Assembly (NCBI RefSeq): GCF_900112975.1
Contig: NZ_FONQ01000011.1
Span: forward strand, 1-64,000
From: Flavobacterium xueshanense
GTDB taxonomy: Bacteria > Bacteroidota > Bacteroidia > Flavobacteriales > Flavobacteriaceae
Length of the DNA stretch: 64,000 bases
Reading direction: 5' to 3'
The position numbers and the translations under genes are program-made. Positions 51,452 through 62,564 of the stretch are shown piece by piece. Position 1 is the stretch's first letter; each line of letters begins with the position of its first letter. The notes under the pieces were generated by a model, which saw only the letters and a program-made list of their open reading frames with translations, was not told the origin of the DNA and did no database searches.

Positions 51452-52732
51452 TTAATAAGAATCGCTCATTTTTTTCTTAATTTGATCTAAACACAAATTA
51501 TTAATGCTTCCTTCGTGCGTATGTTTAGTTTCTTTCGGAGATTGAAATGTACCGTTTTCCAGTTGTTCGGCAACCGCTTTATAGGCATCTCTAAAAGGTA
51601 TTCCGGCAACCACCATTTCGTTTAAGGAATCTACCGTAAACAAAAAATCGTATTTTTTATCGTCTAAAATATGCTCTTTTACCTTGATGTCTTTAATCGC
51701 AAAAATCGCAATATCCAAACACGCTTTGAGGTTTTGAATCGCTGGAAACAATCCTTCTTTCAACAATTGTAAATCTCTGTGATAACCGCTTGGAAGGTTG
51801 TTGGTGATTAAAGTAATTTCATAAGGTAACGCTTGAATTTTGTTGCATTTTCCACGGATCAACTCAAAAACATCGGGGTTTTTCTTGTGAGGCATGATGC
51901 TCGAACCTGTTGTAAGATGCGAAGGCAAAGTGATAAAATCGAAATTCTGACTCATGTACAAACAAACATCCATCGAGAATTTCGATAGGGTAGCAGCCAC
52001 GCTACTCATCGCAAAAGCAACTGTTTTTTCTGATTTTCCACGGCTCATTTGAGCGGCTACCGAATTGAATTTTAAGGTTTCAAAACCTAATTCCAACGTG
52101 GTGAATGTTCTGTTGATAGGAAAAGAACTTCCGTAACCTGCGGCCGAACCTAATGGATTTTGATCCACAATTTTTAAAGCAGCATTTAACATTGTAATGT
52201 CATCAATCAAAGTTTCAGCGTAAGCAGAAAACCACATTCCGAAAGAAGATGGCATTGCAATTTGAAGGTGTGTGTATCCTGGCAACAATACATTTTGGTA
52301 TTTTTCGGCTGATTCCATTAGCAAATCGAACAAGCTTTTTACTTGCTCTTTCAATTCTTTAACGACATCTTTTAGGTATAAATTAACGTCTACCAAAACT
52401 TGGTCGTTACGGGAACGAGCGGTATGGATTTTTTTTCCAGCATCGCCTAATTTTACAGTTAACAGATATTCGATTTTGGAATGTACGTCTTCAAAGCTGT
52501 CTTCGATTTCGAATTTTCCGTTTTCAACAGCTGCAATTATTTCTTCCAAAGCCAAAACTAAAGAAACGGTTTCGGAGTCTGTTAAAAGCCCGATTTGTCC
52601 CAACATTTTTGCATGTGCAATAGAACCTAAAGCATCATATTTGGCAAGAACTAAATCCAGTTCTCTGTCGTTTCCAACGGTAAAATGTTCTATTTGTTTA
52701 TCGGTTGGTATTCCTTTTTCCCAAAGTTTCAT
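51452..52732 (-). CDS. argH: Argininosuccinate lyase
   Basis: 426 residues. Fumarase/aspartase superfamily: 'EDVHSKIEYLL', 'TARSRNDQVLVDVNLYLKD' and 'LLPGYTHLQIAMPSSFGMW' (His general-acid/base region). The signature 'GSSIMPHKKNPD' carries the catalytic Ser loop. 'PSGYHRDLQLLKEGLFP' completes it. It splits argininosuccinate into arginine and fumarate, the last step of the pathway. It is the final gene of the minus-strand arginine run; the long gap after it carries the strong terminator. A repeat-like hairpin element (52767-52843) separates it from the preceding argE-like gene. Confidence 0.95.
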   Translation of the reverse strand: MKLWEKGIPTDKQIEHFTVGNDRELDLVLAKYDALGSIAHAKMLGQIGLLTDSETVSLVLALEEIIAAVENGKFEIEDSFEDVHSKIEYLLTVKLGDAGKKIHTARSRNDQVLVDVNLYLKDVVKELKEQVKSLFDLLMESAEKYQNVLLPGYTHLQIAMPSSFGMWFSAYAETLIDDITMLNAALKIVDQNPLGSAAGYGSSFPINRTFTTLELGFETLKFNSVAAQMSRGKSEKTVAFAMSSVAATLSKFSMDVCLYMSQNFDFITLPSHLTTGSSIMPHKKNPDVFELIRGKCNKIQALPYEITLITNNLPSGYHRDLQLLKEGLFPAIQNLKACLDIAIFAIKDIKVKEHILDDKKYDFLFTVDSLNEMVVAGIPFRDAYKAVAEQLENGTFQSPKETKHTHEGSINNLCLDQIKKKMSDSY

Positions 52733-52766
52733 ATATGAATAATTAGATTTTTAGACTGTTCGATTT

Positions 52767-52843
52767 TTAGCCCCGATGGAAGCGACATCCTTTTTCTGGC
52801 TTCTTTAGCCAGGAAAAGATATAGCGGATAGCGGGATTAGCTC
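52767..52843 (-). repeat. Intergenic repeat element between argE-like and argH genes
   Basis: Contains a hairpin CTTTTTCTGGC / GCCAGGAAAAG flanked by GAAGCGACATCC on the left and AGATATAGCGGATAGCGGG on the right. A second copy with the same order of blocks lies between argC and argG (60072-60171). It looks like a dispersed intergenic element common in Flavobacterium genomes (recalled). Confidence 0.6.
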
Positions 52844-52852
52844 CAAATTATT

Positions 52853-53923
52853 TTATTGTTTGAAAAAATCAGTTAGTATTTTGACATACAATTGAATTCC
52901 TCCTTCTATTTCATTTATAAATATAAATTCGTCCGCCGAGTGTGACCGCAGGGTTTCGCCAGGTCCTAATTTCAAGGATTGACAACTCAAAACGGATTGA
53001 TCCGAAAGGGTAGGCGAGCCGTAAGTGGTTCTTCCCAGTGCGATTCCAGCTTGTACTAAACCGTGTGCAACAAGAATCGAAGACGCGTTTAAATGCATCG
53101 AACGCGGATTGACTTCAGCAGTCAGATGTTTTTTTACAATATCTAAAATTTCGGGATTGTTATAGCAATCATTTACTCTAATATCGACAACCAAATGACA
53201 TTCGGCAGGAACTACGTTGTGTTGTTTTCCCGCAGAGACTTGTGTTACTGTCATTTTTACGGGACCTAAAACCTCCGATATTTTTTCGAATCGATAGCTG
53301 TTAAACCATTCGATAACGGGTATCGCATTGTAAATAGGATTGTCTGGATTATTGTGGGCGGCGTGACTGGCAGTACCTTTAACGATGACATCCAATATCA
53401 ATAACCCTTTTTCGGCTACGGCCAATTGCATCAAAGTCGGTTCGCCAACAATGGCACATTCCAGTTCCGGTAAATGTTTTAATACGCTGTTTAATCCATT
53501 TTTTCCGCTGCTTTCTTCTTCGGCTGAAGCGACCATCACAATGTTGTAAGGCAGATTTTCATTCGAATAAAAATATACAAAAGTGGCTAAAAGTGAAACC
53601 AAACAACCTCCCGCGTCATTGCTTCCTAGTCCAAATAACTTCCCGTCTTTTACGATGGCTTCAAATGGATTGTTTGTGTAACCTTGGTTTGGTTTTACGG
53701 TATCGTGGTGTGAATTTAGTAATAGGGTTGGTTTATTCTTGTCAAAATGTTTATTGAAAGCCCAAACATTATTATTCTCTCTTTTGAAAGGGATGTTATT
53801 TTGTGTAAACCAATTTTCGATTAAAAGAGCTGTTTTATCTTCTTCACTTGAAAATGAAGGCGTTTCAATCAGTGCTTTTAATAACGCAATGGCTTCTTGT
53901 GTAAGGATTTCTATACTCTTCAT
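52853..53923 (-). CDS. argE: M20 family amidohydrolase, N-acyl-ornithine deacylase (ArgE-like)
   Basis: 356 residues, M20 metallopeptidase fold with two domains. Zinc ligands are in 'LLLNSHHDTVKP' (His and Asp), 'FGLGSNDAGG' (Asp), 'VMVASAEEESSGKNG' (catalytic Glu and Glu ligand), and a His near the C-terminus ('LRSHSADEFI'). A dimerisation domain lies at about 175-275. The position between argB and argH indicates removal of the acyl group from N-acyl-ornithine or N-acyl-citrulline. In Bacteroidota this pathway uses N-succinylated or N-acetylated intermediates and a transcarbamylase acting on them. Here argF' is present, so the deacylase should act on N-acylcitrulline. Confidence 0.85.
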   Translation of the reverse strand: MKSIEILTQEAIALLKALIETPSFSSEEDKTALLIENWFTQNNIPFKRENNNVWAFNKHFDKNKPTLLLNSHHDTVKPNQGYTNNPFEAIVKDGKLFGLGSNDAGGCLVSLLATFVYFYSNENLPYNIVMVASAEEESSGKNGLNSVLKHLPELECAIVGEPTLMQLAVAEKGLLILDVIVKGTASHAAHNNPDNPIYNAIPVIEWFNSYRFEKISEVLGPVKMTVTQVSAGKQHNVVPAECHLVVDIRVNDCYNNPEILDIVKKHLTAEVNPRSMHLNASSILVAHGLVQAGIALGRTTYGSPTLSDQSVLSCQSLKLGPGETLRSHSADEFIFINEIEGGIQLYVKILTDFFKQ

Positions 53924-53934
53924 ATTTTATTTGT

Positions 53935-54079
53935 TTTGCCACGATGGCACTATTTTTTTGCCACAAAGGCGCTAAGTCACGAAGTTTGTTATCTACTTTT
54001 TTGTCACAAAGCCATAAATTAAGAAAGTTTTAAGTGTACTTTAAATTATTTCTTTGCGTCTTCGTGCCTTTGTGGCAAA
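53935..54079. repeat. Repeat array between argB and argE-like genes
   Basis: A 14-base word TTTGCCACAAAGGC at 53957-53970 recurs inverted at 54066-54079 (GCCTTTGTGGCAAA). Degenerate direct copies (TTTTGCCACGATGGCA near 53935, TTTTGTCACAAAGCCA near 53999) lie between. Together they can form a large imperfect hairpin. It is a typical dispersed Flavobacterium intergenic repeat (recalled). Confidence 0.6.
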
Positions 54080-54083
54080 TTAA

Positions 54084-54869
54084 CTATAGTTCTATACTAG
54101 TGCAAATAGCCCTCGCGTCTTGCAACATCCTGTGATGACCAATTTTTATTTTTTGAACTCCCTTTGATAAGCTATTGAAACAGTTGTCTAATTTAGGAAT
54201 CATACCGGAATGTATGGCTTTTTCGATTTTTAATTTGGAATATAATTCTTGATTGATGTTCTCGATTACCGAAGAATCGTCTTCGGCATCATACAGAACA
54301 CCGGATTTTTCGAAGCAATAATTCAAAGTTACATCAAAAATTTCCGATAAAGCAATCGCTAATTCGCTGGCAATAGTATCGGCATTCGTATTTAATAATT
54401 GTCCTTTTCCATCGTGTGTTATCGCACAAAATACTGGAACAATACCGTTTAAAAGCAATGTTTCCAATAATTGGGTGTTCACTTTTTTCACATCGCCCAC
54501 AAAACCGTAATTGATAGTTGGGTGGTTTCTTTTATCCGATTGAATTAAATTCCCATCAGCACCAGAAAACCCCATCGCATTTGTCGAATTTGCTTGTAAT
54601 TGAGCAACAATATTTTTGTTGATTTGACCTGCATAAATCATCACAACTACATCAAGCATAGGGGCATCGGTAATGCGTCTTCCCTCAATCATTTGAGGAA
54701 CTAAACCAATGCTTTCCGCCATTTTGGTAGCTGATTTTCCACCGCCGTGAACGAGTACTTTGTAGCCTTTAATTTTAGAAAAATCAGATAAAAATTGTTT
54801 TAATTCCGTTGGATTATCAATAATGTTTCCTCCAATTTTTATTAGGGTTACCGGTTTTTTATTTTCCAT
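54084..54869 (-). CDS. argB: N-acylglutamate kinase (acetylglutamate kinase)
   Basis: 261 residues, amino-acid kinase fold. 'TLIKIGGNIIDNP' is the ATP phosphate-binding Lys/Gly loop. 'VLVHGGGKSATKMAESIGL' is the substrate/ATP site, 'GFSGADGNLIQSDKR' the Ala-Asp-Gly segment, and 'LLNTNADTIASELAIAL' the nucleotide-binding Asp. 'HSGMIPKLDNCFNSLSKGVQKIKIG' binds the transition state Lys. It phosphorylates N-acetyl- or N-succinyl-glutamate. It overlaps the end of argF' by 11 bases, so the two are translationally linked. No arginine-binding N-terminal helix, as in feedback-inhibited hexameric forms, is evident. Confidence 0.92.
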   Translation of the reverse strand: MENKKPVTLIKIGGNIIDNPTELKQFLSDFSKIKGYKVLVHGGGKSATKMAESIGLVPQMIEGRRITDAPMLDVVVMIYAGQINKNIVAQLQANSTNAMGFSGADGNLIQSDKRNHPTINYGFVGDVKKVNTQLLETLLLNGIVPVFCAITHDGKGQLLNTNADTIASELAIALSEIFDVTLNYCFEKSGVLYDAEDDSSVIENINQELYSKLKIEKAIHSGMIPKLDNCFNSLSKGVQKIKIGHHRMLQDARAICTSIEL

Positions 54870-55806
54870 TTTCCAATATTTTTTGCAACACTAATTGTGC
54901 GGCATAGGTTCTATTATTGGCTTGTTCGATAACAATTGAATTTTCACTGTCAAGCACTTCATCCGTAACAATTACATTACGTCTTACCGGCAAACAGTGC
55001 ATGAATTTAGCATTGTTGGTCAGTTTCATTTTGTCGGCAGTTACAGTCCAATTTGGGTCGGAATTTGTTATCTGACCATACTCGGTATAATTACTCCAGT
55101 TTTTGGCATAAATAAAATCGGCGTTTTCGAAAGCTTTGTCTTGGTCGTATTCAATCTTGGAGTCTTTCGTTATTTCAGGATTCAATTCGTAGCCTTCAGG
55201 ATGCGTAATGATAAAGTCTGCATCTTGTAACTGCATCATTTCCACGAAGGAATTGGGTACCGCTTGAGGTAAAGCTTTAGGATGTGGAGCCCAAGTCAAA
55301 ACTACTTTTGGACGGTGTTCTGTTTTGTGTTCGGCCATAGTTATTGCATCGGCTAGCGATTGTAATGGATGTCCGGTAGCACTTTCCATATTAACAATTG
55401 GCACAGTGGCATATTTTAAGAAACCCATAAGAACGGTTTCAGCATTATCTTTTTCTTTGTCTACCAATCCGGCAAAAGCCCTGATTGCAATAATATCGCA
55501 ATATTGAGAAACTACTGCTGCCGCTTCTTTAATATGTTCCGAAGCACCGGAATTCATAATAGCTCCGTCTTCAAATTCTAATGTCCAACCTTCGCTGGTA
55601 AAATTCATTACCATGACGTTCATTCCTAAATTTATAGCTGCTTTTTGAGTACTCAAACGCGTTCTCAAACTAGAATTAAAAAACAACATTCCCAAGGTTT
55701 TGTTTTTACCCAGTTTTTTGTTTTTAAGTGGTTTTTTCTTGATTTTCAAGGCTTGTTTCACCCATTTATCGAGTGAATCTATGTTTTGTATGGAGATGTA
55801 GTTCAT
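54859..55806 (-). CDS. argF': N-acylornithine transcarbamylase (acetyl- or succinylornithine type)
   Basis: 315 residues. The carbamoyl-phosphate motif is 'FFNSSLRTRLSTQKA' (in place of Ser-Thr-Arg-Thr-Arg) and the C-terminal motif is 'FMHCLPVRRNVIVTDEVLD' with His-Cys-Leu-Pro. 'TSEGWTLEFEDGAIMNSGASEHIKEAA' is the region that distinguishes N-acylornithine enzymes from ordinary ornithine transcarbamylase. In Bacteroides fragilis the relative uses N-succinylornithine; in Xanthomonas it uses N-acetylornithine. The acyl group here is not fixed by what I can see. The gene sits between proB and argB in the arginine run. Confidence 0.9.
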   Translation of the reverse strand: MNYISIQNIDSLDKWVKQALKIKKKPLKNKKLGKNKTLGMLFFNSSLRTRLSTQKAAINLGMNVMVMNFTSEGWTLEFEDGAIMNSGASEHIKEAAAVVSQYCDIIAIRAFAGLVDKEKDNAETVLMGFLKYATVPIVNMESATGHPLQSLADAITMAEHKTEHRPKVVLTWAPHPKALPQAVPNSFVEMMQLQDADFIITHPEGYELNPEITKDSKIEYDQDKAFENADFIYAKNWSNYTEYGQITNSDPNWTVTADKMKLTNNAKFMHCLPVRRNVIVTDEVLDSENSIVIEQANNRTYAAQLVLQKILENGK

Positions 55807-55814
55807 TGTAGTTG

Positions 55815-55841
55815 CGAATTATGAATTATGAATTATAAATT
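55815..55841. repeat. Three copies of an 8-base AT repeat between argF' and proB
   Basis: GAATTATG twice followed by GAATTATA, in the 72-base gap. Short tandem words like this recur in other gaps of the window (for example ataactc at 33068-33085). Confidence 0.55.
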
Positions 55842-55878
55842 GTCCAAAAATCTAACAATCTAAAATCCAATATTCGAA

Positions 55879-56649
55879 TTAAATTATTTTAGTAAAAGGT
55901 ATTTCGTTTTTTAAAGCTTTCAAAATAAAGTTGTCTTTCAGGCCATTGACAATCCAGGTTTCGATATTGGCGGCTTTGGCAATTGCCGATGCTTCAATTT
56001 TAGATTGCATTCCGCCAGTTCCATGAGAAGATTTAGAATCTCCAATCTCTTTTTCCAATATTTTTAAATCGGTTACCAGAGAAATGGTTTCAGGAACCAC
56101 ATTATAAATGGATGCTTTGGTGTAAATCCCGTTCGTGTTGGTTGCAATAATCAGAATGTCAACATTTAATAAAACGGCCGTTAAAGCGGCTAATTTATCA
56201 TTATCACCGAACCGAATCTCATCCGTAGCCACAGTATCATTTTCATTGATAATCGGAATGTAATTATTTTTGACTAACACATTGATGGTGTTCACAATAT
56301 TTACTTTGGATTGCTCTTTTTCGAAATCAGAGTAAGAAAGCAAACACTGCGAAATCAGTAATCCTAAATCGCTAAAATTTTCATGATAAATCCGCATCAA
56401 ATGGGGCTGACCAATAGAGGCCAATGCTTGTTTTACAAAAACATCTTTATCTTGATTTTCCAGTTTTACAAATTGTTTGGCTGCGGCAATCGCACCAGAA
56501 CTCACAATAATAAACTCGTAATCGTCTTGTAAAGCGGCTATTTGTATCCCAATATCTTCAATCTTTCCTCTTGAAATGTGATTAGTTTCCTTAGTTAAAG
56601 TATTGCTTCCTAACTTTAATAAAATTCTTTTTTTACCTGATTTGTCCAT
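55879..56649 (-). CDS. proB: Glutamate 5-kinase
   Basis: 256 residues: amino-acid kinase domain only. 'ILLKLGSNTLTKE' is the ATP loop, 'FIIVSSGAIAAAKQFV' the glutamate site, 'PIINENDTVATDEIRFGDNDKLAALTAVLL' the Asn-Glu-Asn-Asp segment, and 'GTGGMQSKIEASAIA' the nucleotide/Lys loop. The PUA domain present in E. coli ProB (367 residues) is missing, as is usual in Bacteroidota. It phosphorylates glutamate for proline synthesis. It overlaps proA by 17 bases, suggesting coupled translation. Confidence 0.92.
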   Translation of the reverse strand: MDKSGKKRILLKLGSNTLTKETNHISRGKIEDIGIQIAALQDDYEFIIVSSGAIAAAKQFVKLENQDKDVFVKQALASIGQPHLMRIYHENFSDLGLLISQCLLSYSDFEKEQSKVNIVNTINVLVKNNYIPIINENDTVATDEIRFGDNDKLAALTAVLLNVDILIIATNTNGIYTKASIYNVVPETISLVTDLKILEKEIGDSKSSHGTGGMQSKIEASAIAKAANIETWIVNGLKDNFILKALKNEIPFTKII

Positions 56650-57829
56650 TTCCGTAAATATACCACTTATTAGTAACTAAATGTTGCAAACCAATGGGTC
56701 CACGCTGGTGTAATTTGTCTGTGCTGATCGCCAATTCTCCACCTAAACCAAATTGTCCTCCATCAGTGAATCGAGTAGAGGCGTTCTGATAAACGGCTGC
56801 TGTATCTACATTTTCCATAAATTCCTGCGCAATTGCATCACTTTTTGTGATTATAGAAGCCGAATGTCCACCGCAATATTTATTTATTTTGTCAATCGCT
56901 TCCTGATCCGAATTGGTTGTTCCAATAACAATTTTATAATCTAAAAACTCTTCGTACCAAATTAACTCCGATTCGATCTGAGAAACATTTGTTACTTTTG
57001 AAATATTTTCATCTCCTAAAATGGTAACGTTTCTTTGTTGTAATTCCTCAACTATTTTGATAACAAAACCTTTCCAATTTTCAAGATTAGTATCAATTAA
57101 AACTTTATCTAAAGCATTGCAAACCGATATATTTGAGGTCTTTCCGTTAATAATAATGTTAAGCGCTTTTTTTAAATCGGCTTCTTTATTCACATAGACA
57201 AAATTATTCCCGCGACCACTAATTATTACGGGACAAGTGGCGTGTTTTTTTACAAAAGCGATTAATTTCTCTCCACCACGAGGAACGATTAAGTCCACTT
57301 TTTGTGTCGGTTTCTCCAAAAATGCCTGTGTTTCCTCCCGATTGTAATTCAAGTATTCCACCCATTTAGTTAATACATTGTTTTCTTTTAAGGCTTGATG
57401 CCACAATTTCACAATTTTCAAGTTGGATTGTAAGGATTCTTTTCCGCCTTTTAGTAGAATTTTGTTTCCGGATTTAAAAGCGATTCCACCAGCCTCAACA
57501 GTAACATCAGGTCTGGATTCATAAATAATCATTATGGTTCCAAAAGCCGCTGTTTTATTGATTATTTTCATTCCGTTTTCATGATCGAAATTAAAACGCT
57601 CCACTCCAATAGGATCTTCCTGGCTCGCTAATTGTTGCATGGATAAAATCATGCCGTCAATTTTGGCATCATCAACCAGTAAACGTTTTTCCATGGCCAA
57701 GTCATTCCCAGAATAATTATTAATATCCTGTTGATTCACCGTTTTAAGGTTGGCTCTTTCGTGTTCAAGAAGTTCGGACATGCGACTTAAAACGGCATTT
57801 CGTTTTTCTATTGGTAGTAATGCATTCAT
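56633..57829 (-). CDS. proA: Gamma-glutamyl phosphate reductase
   Basis: 398 residues, aldehyde-dehydrogenase fold. 'FGTIMIIYESRPDVTVEAGGIAFKSGNKILLKGGKES' is the cofactor/substrate region. The catalytic Cys is in 'NISVCNALDKVLID' and the C-terminal 'ASTRFTDGGQFGLGGELAISTDKLHQRGPIGL' is conserved. It reduces gamma-glutamyl phosphate to the semialdehyde with NADPH. It lies three bases after argD and overlaps proB. Proline genes inside an arginine operon make sense because both pathways start from glutamate. Confidence 0.93.
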   Translation of the reverse strand: MNALLPIEKRNAVLSRMSELLEHERANLKTVNQQDINNYSGNDLAMEKRLLVDDAKIDGMILSMQQLASQEDPIGVERFNFDHENGMKIINKTAAFGTIMIIYESRPDVTVEAGGIAFKSGNKILLKGGKESLQSNLKIVKLWHQALKENNVLTKWVEYLNYNREETQAFLEKPTQKVDLIVPRGGEKLIAFVKKHATCPVIISGRGNNFVYVNKEADLKKALNIIINGKTSNISVCNALDKVLIDTNLENWKGFVIKIVEELQQRNVTILGDENISKVTNVSQIESELIWYEEFLDYKIVIGTTNSDQEAIDKINKYCGGHSASIITKSDAIAQEFMENVDTAAVYQNASTRFTDGGQFGLGGELAISTDKLHQRGPIGLQHLVTNKWYIYGNGQIR

Positions 57830-57831
57830 AA

Positions 57832-58971
57832 TTAAGACTGTATTTCTTTCAACGATTCTTTTAATGCTATAATAAAGGTATCGATAGCTTCTTTCTTGAT
57901 TGTCAGTGGAGGAAGAATTCTTAATAAGTTTTTATTATTCGCATTTCCTGTAAAAATATGTTTGTCCATAATCATTTTTTTACGAAGATTACTTACGTCA
58001 AAATCAAATTCTACCCCTAGCATTAATCCTCTTCCTTTTACTTTGATCACTTCAGGAACTTGTTTGATTGCTTCTAAAAAATAGGCGTAAACATCATTTA
58101 CGTTATCCATTAATTTTTGACTTTCAATTATATCCAAAACTGCTATTCCGGCAGCACAAGCCAAATGGTTTCCGCCGAAAGTAGTTCCCAATAATCCATA
58201 ACTCGCTGTGAATTTTGGAGAAATCAAGATGCCTCCAATAGGAAATCCGTTACCCATTCCTTTGGCCAGACAAATAATATCTGCTTTGATGTTATGATGT
58301 TGGTGTGCAAAAAACTTTCCGCTTCTTCCGTATCCTGATTGCACTTCGTCCAAAATCAGTACGACATCGTAAGCCTCGCACATTTTTGCTAATGCCTGAA
58401 AAAATTCAGTAGTTCCTTGGTCTAAACCGCCAACGCCTTGAATTCCCTCAATGATAACAGAAGAAATATCTCCTTTTTTTAGTTCTTTTTCTACCAACTC
58501 AATATTATTCAATGGTAAAAAAGTAACTATTTGTTGTGCATTGATTGGCGCAACAATTTTTTTGTTATCTGTAACCGCAACCGCCGCCGAAGTTCTTCCG
58601 TGAAAGGAATTATCAAAAGCAATTACTCTGGTTTTATTGTTGTGAAAAGAGGCTAATTTCAAGGCGTTTTCATTGGCTTCAGCTCCGGAACTGCACAAGA
58701 ATAAAGTATACTCTTCCAATCCGGAGAGTTTCCCTAATTTTTCCGCTAATTCTACTTGCAATGGATTCTGAATCGCATTCGAATAAAAACCAATATTATC
58801 CAATTGATTTTTTAGTTTGGCAACATAATCCGGTTGGGTGTGTCCAATGGAAATTACACCATGACCGCCATATAAATCTAAATATTCCACACCTTTTTCA
58901 TCTGTAATAGTACAATCTAGTGCTTTTACAGGTGTAATGTTATATAATGGGTAAACGTCAAATAAGTTCAT
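57832..58971 (-). CDS. argD: N-acylornithine aminotransferase (class III aminotransferase)
   Basis: 379 residues from ATG 58971 (a TTG three codons earlier is possible). PLP fold type I, class III: 'YLDLYGGHGVISIGHTQPDYV', 'LFLCSSGAEANENALKLA', 'FDNSFHGRTSAAVAVTD', 'VVLILDEVQSGYGRSGKFFAHQHHNIKADIICLAKGMGNGFPIGG' with the PLP Lys near 240, and 'TTFGGNHLACAAGIAVLD'. It transaminates N-acylglutamate semialdehyde to N-acylornithine. Placed between argC and proA. Whether it handles acetyl or succinyl derivatives cannot be read from the sequence. Confidence 0.92.
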   Translation of the reverse strand: MNLFDVYPLYNITPVKALDCTITDEKGVEYLDLYGGHGVISIGHTQPDYVAKLKNQLDNIGFYSNAIQNPLQVELAEKLGKLSGLEEYTLFLCSSGAEANENALKLASFHNNKTRVIAFDNSFHGRTSAAVAVTDNKKIVAPINAQQIVTFLPLNNIELVEKELKKGDISSVIIEGIQGVGGLDQGTTEFFQALAKMCEAYDVVLILDEVQSGYGRSGKFFAHQHHNIKADIICLAKGMGNGFPIGGILISPKFTASYGLLGTTFGGNHLACAAGIAVLDIIESQKLMDNVNDVYAYFLEAIKQVPEVIKVKGRGLMLGVEFDFDVSNLRKKMIMDKHIFTGNANNKNLLRILPPLTIKKEAIDTFIIALKESLKEIQS

Positions 58972-58981
58972 GTTTTTCAAA

Positions 58982-59051
58982 TTTAATCGGTTAATGGGTT
59001 AATGGGTTATTTGTTTAATCGATTAAACGAATTAACGATTAACCAAATAAA
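58982..59051. repeat. GGTTAAT repeats and palindrome between argC and argD
   Basis: GGTTAATG occurs twice, then GGTTATTTG, with a palindrome TTTAATCGATTAAA and an inverted AATTAACGATTAACC. The whole stretch folds on itself. No coding potential. Confidence 0.55.
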
Positions 59052-59054
59052 CAT

Positions 59055-60032
59055 CTAGAATCCACTAGGTTTCAAATGTAATCCGGTGGTTTCATCCAAT
59101 CCAAATAGTAGATTCATATTTTGAATGGCTTGTCCTGAAGCTCCTTTTGTTAAATTATCAATTACTGAAGTAATCAATAGCCGGTTTCCTTTTTTCATTA
59201 AACTAATAATACATTTATTCGTTTGAACCACTTGTTTCATGTTGATTCCAGTGGTGGTAATAGTTACGAAAGGTTGATCTTTATAAAACGCCTCATATTT
59301 TGCCACTACATCTTCCAAGTTTTCTTCGATTGTTGTGTATAATGTTGCGAAAATCCCTCTGGCAAAATCTCCTCTGTTGGGTACAAAAATCAATTCGTTT
59401 TTATAATCCGCTTGCAATTGGTTGACACTTTGGTTTATTTCGCCCAAATGTTGGTGTTCAAAAGCTTTGTAATGCGACATATTATTCGATCTCCAACTAA
59501 AATGTGTTGTTTCCGTAGCAGTAACTCCGGCTCCCGTACTTCCGGTTGTGGCATTGATATGAATGTCAGTCGTAAGCATTTCGTTTTTAGCCAATGGTAA
59601 TAATGCTAGTTGAATTGCTGTGGCAAAACAACCTGGATTAGCGATAAATTGAGCGTTTTTGATGTGCGCTTTGTTTAATTCTGGCAAACCGTAAACGAAA
59701 GTTTTTCCGTTAAATTCTTTGTCTTTTGTTAATCTGAAATCATTTCCTAAATCGATGATTTTGGTATGACTCGCAAATTGATTTTGTTCTAAAAACGATT
59801 TTGATTTACCGTGTCCTAAGCACAAAAAAACTACATTCACATTTGGATTTACAGTATCGGTAAAATTCATTTCGATATCGCCCATCAAATCATGATGCGC
59901 GACATGAAGTGGTTTTCCGGCGTTTGTCGTGCTGTACACAAAATCGAGTGTTGCATTGGGATGAAACATTAATATTCTGATGAGTTCCCCCGCAGTGTAA
60001 CCTGAACCGCCAATTATTCCAATATTAATCAT
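59055..60032 (-). CDS. argC: N-acyl-gamma-glutamyl-phosphate reductase
   Basis: 325 residues. An NADP Rossmann domain opens with 'IGIIGGSGYTAGELIRIL'; 'VNVVFLCLGHGKSKSFL' follows. The catalytic Cys is in 'QFIANPGCFATAIQLALLPL' and the His region is near 'AFEHQHLGEINQ'. 'FVPNRGDFARGIFATLYT' closes the domain. It reduces N-acylglutamyl phosphate to the semialdehyde. Preceded by argG with a repeat element in between. Confidence 0.94.
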   Translation of the reverse strand: MINIGIIGGSGYTAGELIRILMFHPNATLDFVYSTTNAGKPLHVAHHDLMGDIEMNFTDTVNPNVNVVFLCLGHGKSKSFLEQNQFASHTKIIDLGNDFRLTKDKEFNGKTFVYGLPELNKAHIKNAQFIANPGCFATAIQLALLPLAKNEMLTTDIHINATTGSTGAGVTATETTHFSWRSNNMSHYKAFEHQHLGEINQSVNQLQADYKNELIFVPNRGDFARGIFATLYTTIEENLEDVVAKYEAFYKDQPFVTITTTGINMKQVVQTNKCIISLMKKGNRLLITSVIDNLTKGASGQAIQNMNLLFGLDETTGLHLKPSGF

Positions 60033-60071
60033 AATTTTAGTTTTTTGCGAAAAAGTTGTTGTCTAGTTTTT

Positions 60072-60171
60072 TAGCGTGAGGGACAGGAGCGGCATCCTTT
60101 TGTGGCGCGATAGCAGAACAAAAGATACAGCGTATAGCCCGACCCGTAGTTTTTACGGAGGGTCACGACCA
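60072..60171 (-). repeat. Intergenic repeat element between argG and argC
   Basis: Second copy of the element at 52767-52843: GGAGCGGCATCCTTTTGT, a short variable middle, ACAAAAGATACAGCGTATAGC. It is followed by ACCCGTAGTTTTTACGGAGGGT, another small hairpin. Same orientation as the first copy. Confidence 0.6.
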
Positions 60172-60181
60172 TATTATTATA

Positions 60182-61375
60182 TTAATCGTGTGTCAGTTTA
60201 TTTACAGATGAAAATATGTTTTGGGCATTCCCCAGAATTTTGATAAATCCTTTGGCGTCGTCAGAAGTCCAGGCGTTGTTCATTTCTCCGTATTGTCCAA
60301 AAGTAGTATTCATTAAATCATTTTCAGATTCAATTCCGTCCAATGTAAAGTGATATGGCTTTAGTGAAACGATAACGGTTCCGTTTACAGTGGTTTGGGT
60401 ATCTTCCAGAAAAGCCTCGATGTTTCTCATTACAGGATCCAAGAATTGTCCTTCATGAAACAACATTCCGTACCAGTTTCCTAATTGTTCTTTCCAGTAT
60501 TGTTGCCATTTACCCAGCGTATGTTTCTCTAATAAATGGTGTGCTTTGATGATGATTAAAGGCGCAGCGGCTTCAAAACCAACTCTTCCTTTTATTCCGA
60601 TTATCGTATCACCAACATGAATATCCCTACCAATTGCATACGCGCTGGCTAATTTTTCTAAAGCAACGATGTTTTTTGTTGGGGTGTCCAATGTACCATT
60701 GATTCCTACTAATTGTCCTTTTTCAAATTGTAAGGTCACTTTCTCTTCACCCGTTTTTTGCAATTGCGAAGGATACGCTTCACTTGGTAAAGTTTGATTG
60801 GACGTCAATGTCTCTTTACCACCTACGCTTGTTCCCCACAATCCTTTGTTGATGGAATATTGTGCTTTTTCCCAAGAATAATGAACTCCATGTTTAGATA
60901 AATAATCCACTTCTTCCTGTCTTGATAATTTTAAATCCCTGATCGGAGTGATGATTTCAATTTCGGGAGCAATGGTTTGGAAAATTAAATCAAAACGAAT
61001 TTGGTCATTTCCTGCACCGGTGCTTCCGTGCGCGATTGCTTCAGCACCAACAGATTTTGCATATTTAATCGCTTCGATAGCTTGAAAAACACGCTCGGCA
61101 CTTACGGATAATGGATAGGTATTATTTTTTAATACATTTCCATAAATCAAATATTTAATGGCTTTATCATAATATTTATCGACGATAGTTAAATTAACAT
61201 GCTGCGCACTTCCTAGTTCGTAAGCTCTTGCTTCAATATCCGCTAACTCCGTTTCATCAAATCCGCCTGTATTTATAAGAACGGTATGAACTTCATATCC
61301 TTTTTCGTTTTTTAAATATTTTAGGCAATAGGAGGTGTCTAATCCTCCGCTGTAAGCTAATACTACTTTTTTCAT
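60182..61375 (-). CDS. argG: Argininosuccinate synthase
   Basis: 397 residues. The PP-loop is 'VLAYSGGLDTSYC' (about 5-17). 'AIAHGSTGAGNDQIRFDLIF' binds ATP/citrulline. 'YSINKGLWGTSVGGKETLTSNQTLPSEAYP' and 'GRVGFEAAAPLIIIKAHH' match the Bacteroidota-type enzyme. It condenses citrulline with aspartate using ATP. In this pathway free citrulline must be made by the argE-like deacylase. It follows the GNAT gene with a 120-base gap that holds a repeat. Confidence 0.95.
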   Translation of the reverse strand: MKKVVLAYSGGLDTSYCLKYLKNEKGYEVHTVLINTGGFDETELADIEARAYELGSAQHVNLTIVDKYYDKAIKYLIYGNVLKNNTYPLSVSAERVFQAIEAIKYAKSVGAEAIAHGSTGAGNDQIRFDLIFQTIAPEIEIITPIRDLKLSRQEEVDYLSKHGVHYSWEKAQYSINKGLWGTSVGGKETLTSNQTLPSEAYPSQLQKTGEEKVTLQFEKGQLVGINGTLDTPTKNIVALEKLASAYAIGRDIHVGDTIIGIKGRVGFEAAAPLIIIKAHHLLEKHTLGKWQQYWKEQLGNWYGMLFHEGQFLDPVMRNIEAFLEDTQTTVNGTVIVSLKPYHFTLDGIESENDLMNTTFGQYGEMNNAWTSDDAKGFIKILGNAQNIFSSVNKLTHD

Positions 61376-61498: not shown

Positions 61499-62116
61499 TT
61501 ATTTTTTTAAGAATAAGGCTTGCTTTATTGATTTTAATCGGTTTAAAATTTTGACATTAAATGGATGTTCAGGCGGGTCTTTAGGCTTTTCTTTTGGGTC
61601 ATAAAGCATTCCGGTACACAAACACATTTTGTTGTCTTTACTTTGTAAAATCTCAAAATTAGTACAGGTTTTACAACCGGCCCAAAAAGTTGGATCTGTC
61701 GTCAATTCTGAAAACGGAACCGGTTTGTATCCCAAATCAGAATTGATTTTCATTACTGCTAATCCAGTTGTAATTCCGAATATTTTAGCATCTGGGTATT
61801 TCTCCAAAGAATAGTCAAATACTTTCGATTTAATTTGTTTTGCCAATCCTAAATTTCTGTAATCAGGATGAACTATCAATCCTGAATGTGCCACATATTT
61901 ACCGTGCTGCCAACTTTCAATGTAGCAAAAACCTGTAAATTTCCCGTTGTCTAATGCAATTATGGCATCTTTACTTTCCATTTTTTTCTGGATGTATTCA
62001 GGAGTTCTCTTAGCAATTCCCGTACCTCTTAATAGTGCGGATAATTCTATGGTATCGCATATTTCCTGCGAATATTTATAATGTTCTTCCTGAGTTATAA
62101 TGATAGAAATCTTCAT
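61499..62116 (-). CDS. GNAT-family acyltransferase with C-terminal Cys cluster; candidate first enzyme of arginine synthesis
   Basis: 205 residues. The GNAT fold (about 1-135) has the acyl-CoA loop region 'SGLIVHPDYRNLGLAKQIKSKVFDYS' (the Q/R-x-x-G-x-G/A pattern, here Arg-Asn-Leu-Gly-Leu-Ala). 'IIALDNGKFTGFCYIESWQHG' and 'GITTGLAVMKINSDLGYKPVPF' follow. A C-terminal extension has Cys148, Cys151, Cys165 and Cys167 (C-x2-C-x13-C-x-C), a likely zinc or redox site. Being the first gene of the arg run, it is the natural candidate for N-acylating glutamate (acetyl- or succinyl-CoA), since no classical argA or argJ is present in the window. That role is inference from position. Confidence 0.75.
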   Translation of the reverse strand: MKISIIITQEEHYKYSQEICDTIELSALLRGTGIAKRTPEYIQKKMESKDAIIALDNGKFTGFCYIESWQHGKYVAHSGLIVHPDYRNLGLAKQIKSKVFDYSLEKYPDAKIFGITTGLAVMKINSDLGYKPVPFSELTTDPTFWAGCKTCTNFEILQSKDNKMCLCTGMLYDPKEKPKDPPEHPFNVKILNRLKSIKQALFLKK

Positions 62117-62440
62117 TTCAAAAGCTGAATTTTGAGTTATAAAATGATTTTAATATTTGTTTTTGAAATGTATTTTTACCAAATTCAAATACAATATCAA
62201 AACTGTTGATTGTTGTGCAATAAATTGAACTACAATGCGATAGCATTAAATAAGTATTAGTTTTTGGATAAATTAATCCAATGGAAAATAGCGGTGATTT
62301 CAAAACAGAGAAAATGAAAAATGAATAAAAATACGAAACAGCTTTTGGGTACTATAGTTATAGCATCCGTACTTCGGGAGAAGTGGTAAGTCTGTTTGTC
62401 CGTGACAAAGAAGTTATATGTAAACTTGATTTATTCATTG
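62117..62440 (-). promoter_or_regulatory. Long leader of the arginine operon
   Basis: The predicted mRNA start is near 62437-62440 and the first gene begins at 62116, leaving about 320 bases. No known riboswitch was recognised. It includes a small hairpin (ACTTC-TCCC-GAAGT on the minus strand near 62375) and the short reading frame listed separately. Nothing else in it looks coding. Confidence 0.4.
62358..62438 (-). CDS. Possible 26-residue leader peptide of the arginine operon
   Basis: ATG at 62438-62436, TAA at 62360-62358, right at the predicted start of transcription, so translation would be leaderless. The peptide has three Arg (two CGG, one AGA) in 26 residues, the middle and end 'SLSRTNRLTTSPEVRML'. 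Arg-rich leaders can sense charged tRNA-Arg by attenuation. This is a suggestion; no clear competing hairpins were worked out. Confidence 0.3.
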   Translation of the reverse strand: MNKSSLHITSLSRTNRLTTSPEVRML

Positions 62441-62443
62441 GTC

Positions 62444-62471
62444 CAAAAGTACACATATTTTTATAACGCAA
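62444..62471 (-). promoter_or_regulatory. Strong Bacteroidota promoter of the arginine operon
   Basis: On the minus strand TTG (62471-62469), a 17-base spacer, then TACTTTTG (62451-62444), a complete match to TAnnTTTG. It is the only full consensus promoter upstream of the GNAT gene, and no comparable one was seen inside the ten-gene run. Confidence 0.6.
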
Positions 62472-62528: not shown

Positions 62529-62564
62529 AAAACTTCTTGATAAAAGTGATTATCAAGAAGTTTT
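62529..62564 (-). terminator. Intrinsic terminator of the 62590-63774 lipoprotein gene
   Basis: AAACTTCTTGATAA / TTATCAAGAAGTTT arms around a six-base loop, A-run on the left giving a U-tail on the minus strand. It insulates the arg promoter just downstream. Confidence 0.8.

Follow-up and report, generated by a model that had tools for sequence, protein, structure and literature searches.

What regulates the arginine and proline genes of a Flavobacterium? The question is raised by the window, a stretch of 64,000 nucleotides from Flavobacterium xueshanense (contig NZ_FONQ01000011.1, positions 1 to 64,000), in which the leader of an arginine operon lies on the minus strand and extends from a promoter-like TTG-N17-TACTTTTG (62471–62444) down to 62116, where a GNAT acetyltransferase gene starts. 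A preliminary description had proposed that a short frame in this leader, or the folded leader itself, senses arginine or charged tRNA-Arg and controls the whole run of genes. Comparison with relatives supports that proposal through conserved Arg codons, conserved folds, and recurrence across the family, and control of the operon by an Arg-codon leader peptide, taken in general, appears very probable on this comparison. The best explanation overall is probably a cis-acting arginine switch composed of two upstream frames.

Organization of the arginine operon

The ten-gene arginine/proline run that had been reported is present, as judged by NCBIfam matches, except that its first gene encodes a GNAT acetyltransferase and is not a recognized arg gene; this gene (61499–62116) matches no NCBIfam family at E up to 1e-10. 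The NCBIfam scores of argG, argD, and the ArgE/DapE-like deacylase fall under the curated cut-offs. The promoter pattern reported on the minus strand is also found. The genes and the promoter-like element are arranged as follows:

62444–62471, minus strand: promoter-like element, TTG (62471–62469), 17 nt, and TACTTTTG (62451–62444) (pattern match; box near ORF1 in the genus)
61499–62116, minus strand: first operon gene, GNAT acetyltransferase (Pfam Acetyltransf_1)
51452–61375, minus strand: remainder of the operon, argG, argC, argD, proA, proB, N-acetylornithine carbamoyltransferase, argB, ArgE/DapE-like deacylase, and argH (NCBIfam)

A 15-pair terminator-like hairpin at 62529–62564 on the minus strand separates the upstream gene from the arginine promoter. 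Searches of the window with Rfam yielded, at the gathering score, just two Flavo-1 motifs (RF01705; 52765–52842 and 60069–60148), which are located between operon genes on the plus strand, opposite to the operon, and no T-box or match in the leader; across 20 loci, the four matches up to E 1 are all under the gathering score, and none is in a leader.

The arginine repressor ArgR has no match in the genome of F. xueshanense. In a set of 60 genomes, none has a match above the cut-off and one match lies below it, and none of 149 genomes of the family has a match above the cut-off. Across the phylum, ArgR is found above the cut-off in 73 of 198 genomes, including one of this family (G221), whose match is at the cut-off and lies in a 312-aa frame. 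Of 14 control genomes, 8 have a match above the cut-off.

A conserved Arg-codon frame near the predicted transcript start

The 26-codon frame with three Arg codons (CGG13, AGA16, and CGG24) noted in the preliminary description is present, 322 nt ahead of the first gene, and is referred to here as ORF1:

62358–62438, minus strand: ORF1, 26 codons, MNKSSLHITSLSRTNRLTTSPEVRML*, proposed Arg-sensor leader peptide (translation; conserved in relatives)
62400–62402, minus strand: CGG codon 13 of ORF1 (conserved as codon 12/13)
62367–62369, minus strand: CGG codon 24 of ORF1 (conserved as codon 23/24)

Two sets of relatives were compared. A pattern scan of named genomes gave at least 120 stretches, which, pooled with others, constitute 140 distinct leaders. 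Of these stretches, at least 120 in number, 118 are titled as Flavobacterium or Flavobacteriaceae, and 118 have a GNAT gene next on the same strand, the other two having just 315 and 272 nt remaining. The contigs named as a Klebsiella pneumoniae MAG (L251) and a Lentimicrobium MAG (L318) have the same Flavobacterium-type leader and GNAT gene, and these contigs look misassigned. The leader is also present in Flavobacterium johnsoniae CI04 (L296). The second set, an unbiased check, comprises 36 loci picked by the downstream GNAT gene without the core pattern, in which ORF1 was found by the promoter box alone.

Among the Arg codons of ORF1, only the two CGG codons are conserved. In the 36 GNAT-chosen loci, CGG occupies codon 12/13 in 35, the remaining locus having AGG, and it occupies codon 23/24 in all 36. 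In the 140 pooled leaders, among the matches listed, 139 have CGG at codon 12/13 and the other has AGG, codon 16 encodes Arg in 28, and codon 23/24 is CGG in 140, the last count arising partly by construction because the search pattern includes this codon. CGG accounts for 7 of the 96 Arg codons across 12 genes of the window. Within the genus, the amino acid motif SPEVR hardly varies, both in the set chosen by a pattern covering part of the motif and in the GNAT-chosen loci. In one MAG (L229), the ORF1 ATG is out of frame with the CGG24 core. Two leaders (L267 and L285) have an apparent GTG start codon for ORF1 at the same place.

The position of the promoter box with respect to ORF1 is also conserved. 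The bare promoter pattern occurs five times in the window versus 2.77 expected, which is not significant. In the pooled genus leaders, a TAnnTTTG box lies at most 20 nt from the ORF1 ATG in 139 of 140, with a gap of 5 nt in 125 of 140 (both among the matches listed), and ORF1 in the window starts 5 nt past the −7 box. In Flavobacterium johnsoniae, many start sites are described 4–5 nt downstream of the −7 element (PMC6847099). This spacing and the position of the box predict an ORF1 that is leaderless or almost leaderless, an arrangement that would be unusual there.

Seventeen relatives were used to build a covariance model of the ORF1 region. It matches 57 of 121 genomes of the genus, with one match each, and all 57 matches lie, by coordinates, 188–221 nt ahead of the operon GNAT gene. 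A GNAT match is found in 72 of the 121 genomes, of which 15 have no leader-model match; among the 13 of these that were inspected (G003 and G384 were left out), 10 contain a different Arg-rich frame and three contain none (G032, G395, and G431). Many genomes of the genus (G004, G006, G015, and others) have a second GNAT copy of approximately 49–55% identity. The single match of the leader model in each genome is placed at the operon copy and not at the second copy. In F. xueshanense itself, no further copies of the leader were found: apart from one full match, a DNA search recovered just pieces no longer than 33 bases, and the leader model gave one match.

RNA helices over the Arg codons

The short frame and its folds are both conserved in relatives that keep the same operon. 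Two local hairpins and one proposed long-range pairing, which joins the ORF1 start to the region ahead of a second frame, ORF2, are considered:

62371–62384, minus strand: hairpin H1 (ACTTC-TCCC-GAAGT), inside ORF1 (pairs kept in relatives)
62347–62368, minus strand: hairpin H2, from CGG24 across the ORF1 stop (pairs kept in relatives)
62430–62439, minus strand: 5′ side of P0, the proposed long-range pairing, in the ORF1 start region (pair count versus shuffles)
62320–62329, minus strand: 3′ side of P0 (TTTATTCATT), upstream of the ORF2 start (ATTCAT in 52 of 53 leaders)

Among the matches listed, all five pairs of H1 are kept in 140 of the 140 pooled leaders, with three of the pairs falling in the search pattern, and the middle pair is TA in 132, CG in seven, and TG in one. 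H2 retains at least six of its seven pairs in 136 of 140 when the best placement is taken; at the fourth pair, 67 leaders have TA, 27 have CG, and 43 have no pairing (again among the matches listed). In the first 17 sequences, H1 and H2 together have eight cells with two-sided changes versus 1.9 in shuffled sequences; further pair types show no excess (7 versus 7.6 shuffled). These conserved RNA helices overlap the Arg codons.

The long-range pairing is less well defined. When its placement is free to slide, P0 forms 9 or more of its 10 pairs in 89 of 111 leaders versus 24 of 111 shuffled, and its duplex energy in the genus is −8.1 versus −6.8 shuffled, better than the shuffle in 45 of 53 leaders. 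Under the same free placement, ORF1 base 3 (G) pairs with C, as in TTTATTCATT, in only 41 of 111 leaders and with T in 70, and in the 11 leaders with A at ORF1 base 6 the partner is T in five and the base is unpaired in six. Within the genus of the window, P0 is thus a weak candidate whose register is not fixed. The pairing, a candidate for mutually exclusive structures, is clear in relatives with two frames (41 leaders, assigned by rule), where the ORF1 start and the region before ORF2 pair with a mean energy of −12.8 versus −8.0 kcal/mol shuffled, with z < −1 in 34 of 41 and z < −2 in 23 of 41.

A second frame leading into the operon

The preliminary description overlooked a second open frame, and the leader thus holds two:

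62118–62303, minus strand: ORF2, 61 codons from TTG at 62303 to TGA at 62118, touching the first operon gene as TGAAATG (open-frame test; low Arg)

The ORF2 start is located in 138 of the 140 pooled leaders among the matches listed, and in 132 of these 138 the stop falls between −13 and +9 of the gene start, at −4 in 96 (among the matches listed). In the remaining six of the 138 listed, the stop is outside this band, including one that is 69 nt early (L014). The mean number of stops in the ORF2 region is 0.10 for this frame versus 3.67 and 6.22 in the other frames (pooled leaders, among the matches listed). The composition of ORF2 is distinctive: Arg accounts for 15 of 3032 residues in 51 sequences, or 0.49% versus 1.91% in dinucleotide shuffles, and Met, Trp, and His are likewise low. 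In four divergent members of the genus (L025–L028), the frame from the matching TTG stops after 29–32 codons and ends in RP. Comparison at the sequence level shows ORF1 and ORF2 as frames, the conserved Arg codons, the hairpins H1 and H2, and the contact between the ORF2 stop and the gene start, and ArgR was not found in it.

Were the frames incidental, a DNA-binding regulator could act at a promoter near 62116. In favor of this, 54 genus leaders contain 17 other TAnnTTTG boxes downstream of ORF1 and ahead of the gene, and 15 of these boxes lie 62–90 nt before the gene. A scan of the window leader between ORF1 codon 21 and the GNAT gene finds no such box, however, and the conservation of ORF1 and ORF2 as frames, together with the failure to find ArgR, makes this explanation extremely improbable.

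Arg-rich leaders across the family

A GNAT gene is found in 98 of 149 genomes of the family. In 86 of 96 family upstream regions outside the type of the window, there is a short frame with at least three Arg codons among its last eight, versus 3.0 in shuffled sequences; a cruder count, at least four Arg in any eight codons, gives 73 of 130 upstream regions in sense versus 23 of 130 in antisense. The leaders come in two versions, containing either one frame that ends in RRRP or two frames, with ORF1 ending near RNRRR and ORF2 ending in PRRP. Outside the genus, the frames have Arg codons in common and little peptide sequence in common, and this recurrence with different peptides points to the Arg codons rather than to one peptide. 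It also bears on the idea that ORF1 encodes an arrest peptide, or that the RNA is a riboswitch, sensing free arginine directly. The near invariance of SPEVR in the genus speaks for such a sensor, but H1 and H2 are built from the same nucleotides and can account for the constraint, and with little sequence shared beyond the genus a direct sensor is highly improbable.

The relatives outside the genus (upstream regions L040–L135) contain an additional RNA element, in which a hairpin at the end of the last frame, P1 (CGCCC-GTAA-GGGTG), is followed by a second hairpin, P2, with a GG-UGNGU-CC tip. In 79 sequences, P1-P2 has 55 cells with two-sided changes versus 17.2 shuffled. Most of these cells are in P2, where covariation is strong, and the outer pair of P1 does not hold in 24 of 78 sequences. 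Of 100 upstream regions, 91 are matched by a P1-P2 model for which 79 of them served as input. The model matches 91 of 149 genomes of the family, with one strong match per genome, ahead of the arginine operon. One genome (G134) has an extra weak match inside a predicted coding frame, and in another without a GNAT match (G143), P1-P2 precedes a 194-aa frame and frames that resemble ArgG and ArgC by eye. In an order-wide draw, 12 of 196 genomes match, all from the same family. No P1-P2 element is found in the window, where the best match has an E of 1.1, nor at three GNAT paralogues. Two of these paralogues (L136 and L138) are without an Arg-rich frame, and the third (L137) has a frame with three Arg in eight codons that are not at its end. 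P1-P2 is a conserved RNA element outside the genus of the window and has no Rfam match in the loci searched.

Two further readings of P2 were considered. A third frame starting from an ATG or GTG in the P2 loop was rejected: over 81 loci it has 1.23 stops, and the other two frames have 1.58 and 1.25. A Shine-Dalgarno-like role for the loop, suggested by eye, was set aside on the grounds that two-sided changes affect its GG/CC pair in 2 of 79 sequences.

Terminator-like sites and the output of the leader

Classic transcription attenuation would place an intrinsic terminator at H2, or at P1 in the relatives. Terminator-like sites do exceed shuffles in both cases, occurring in 19 of 111 genus leaders versus 3.6 shuffled, mostly at H2, and in 42 of 84 P1-bearing leaders versus 3.0 shuffled, mostly at P1. 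The 8 nt past P1 are 49% T versus 37% onward to the gene, with at least five T in 27 of 84. The 8 nt past H2, however, are low in T, 31% versus 45% onward to the gene, with at least five T in 4 of 111, and no intrinsic terminator-like site (a G+C stem followed by a T run) is found in the window leader. Classic attenuation is therefore not the best fit, and we regard it as rather improbable.

Termination could instead depend on Rho, in which case stalling in ORF1 and translation of ORF2 would shield the leader and the output would be transcription. The window leader past ORF1 is poor in G (9%) and has no intrinsic terminator-like site, as this explanation would have it, yet shielding does not require the ORF2 stop to fall at the gene start, where it is seen in 132 of 138 pooled leaders among the matches listed. 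Rho-dependent termination is compatible with the switch of two upstream frames, and as the explanation in its own right it is unlikely.

Proposed mechanism

In the switch of two frames favored here, transcription would begin at or just ahead of the ORF1 start codon. When charged tRNA-Arg is scarce, a ribosome would stall at the two CGG codons of ORF1, and ribosomes would queue back over the ORF1 start. CGG13 lies 12 codons past the start and CGG24 11 codons further, distances that we take to correspond to approximately one ribosome each and that would suit a queue covering the ORF1 start. With the queue in place, the RNA immediately ahead of ORF2 would be unable to pair with the start region of ORF1, such that initiation at ORF2 would become possible. 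As ORF2 is nearly free of Arg, it could be read even in starvation, and the TGAAATG contact would pass its ribosomes on to the gene that opens the operon. With abundant arginine, ribosomes would clear ORF1, H1, H2, and the long-range pairing would form, ORF2 would be poorly started, and expression of the operon would be low. We infer where transcription starts, that ribosomes stall and queue, that the long-range switch operates in this genus, that translation is coupled, and that the leader responds to arginine.

The relay itself, from ORF1 as a sensor through ORF2 to the operon, is judged to be a plausible arrangement with slightly less than an even chance of being correct. The most complete reading is offered tentatively, as possible and somewhat short of probable: a leaderless Arg-sensing first peptide would gate an Arg-poor second one, only translation of the second would open the operon by stop-start coupling, and one- and two-frame versions ending in P1-P2 would provide ribosomal arginine sensing across the family, where other members of the phylum carry ArgR. 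If this is true, it would equip the Flavobacteriaceae, of which 149 genomes gave no ArgR match above the cut-off, with a means of regulating arginine synthesis.

Comparison with known leader-peptide systems

In attenuators of the trp and his type, a biosynthetic operon is immediately preceded by a short frame that contains codons for its end product. Similar to these, the leader described here has a short frame with cognate codons directly ahead of a biosynthetic operon. The differences are that the window leader has no intrinsic terminator-like site, that a second frame leads into the operon, that the amino acid is arginine, and that the first frame is predicted to be leaderless.

Arg codons that sense arginine have been described in two other leaders. 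In the Salmonella orf34/speF leader, Arg codons respond to low arginine and alter RNA folding; this system differs in its target, an ornithine decarboxylase, in its two consecutive Arg codons, and in its outputs, which involve Rho, sequestration of the ribosome-binding site, and RNase G (PMC6386406). In Staphylococcus aureus rbfL, arginine is sensed via tRNA-Arg at rare Arg codons of a leader peptide. The differences are that starvation represses the downstream gene, whose ribosome-binding site is blocked, and that the target is a biofilm regulator (PMC13009471). As far as these accounts describe, neither leader precedes an arginine biosynthetic operon (PMC6386406, PMC13009471). Two leader peptides in one leader are also found for ermB, which is antibiotic-induced and is a resistance gene (PMC8274638).

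Closer relatives provide precedents for leader peptides. In Flavobacterium psychrophilum, of the same genus, strong clues were reported for leader-peptide attenuation ahead of amino acid operons, with pheA, hisG, and others named and no arginine operon among those named (PMC9723704). In Bacteroides thetaiotaomicron, of the same phylum, long 5′ untranslated regions contain short frames reminiscent of attenuating leader peptides; BT_4401 is named there, and the word arginine is absent from the text (PMC7366714). A survey of actinobacteria observed no RNA element upstream of arginine operons (PMC1262725), and the account of uORF motifs in a survey of 26 bacterial genomes mentions no names beginning with Flavobacter- (PMC8632094). 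In the literature searched, which covers few subscription journals, no description of leader-peptide control of an arginine biosynthetic operon was found among the matches listed. The phylum naturally lacks Shine-Dalgarno sequences (PMC6847099), and the locus would therefore be a natural test of a ribosome-based switch that works without them. If the switch operates as proposed, the arginine biosynthetic operon would join those under leader-peptide control.
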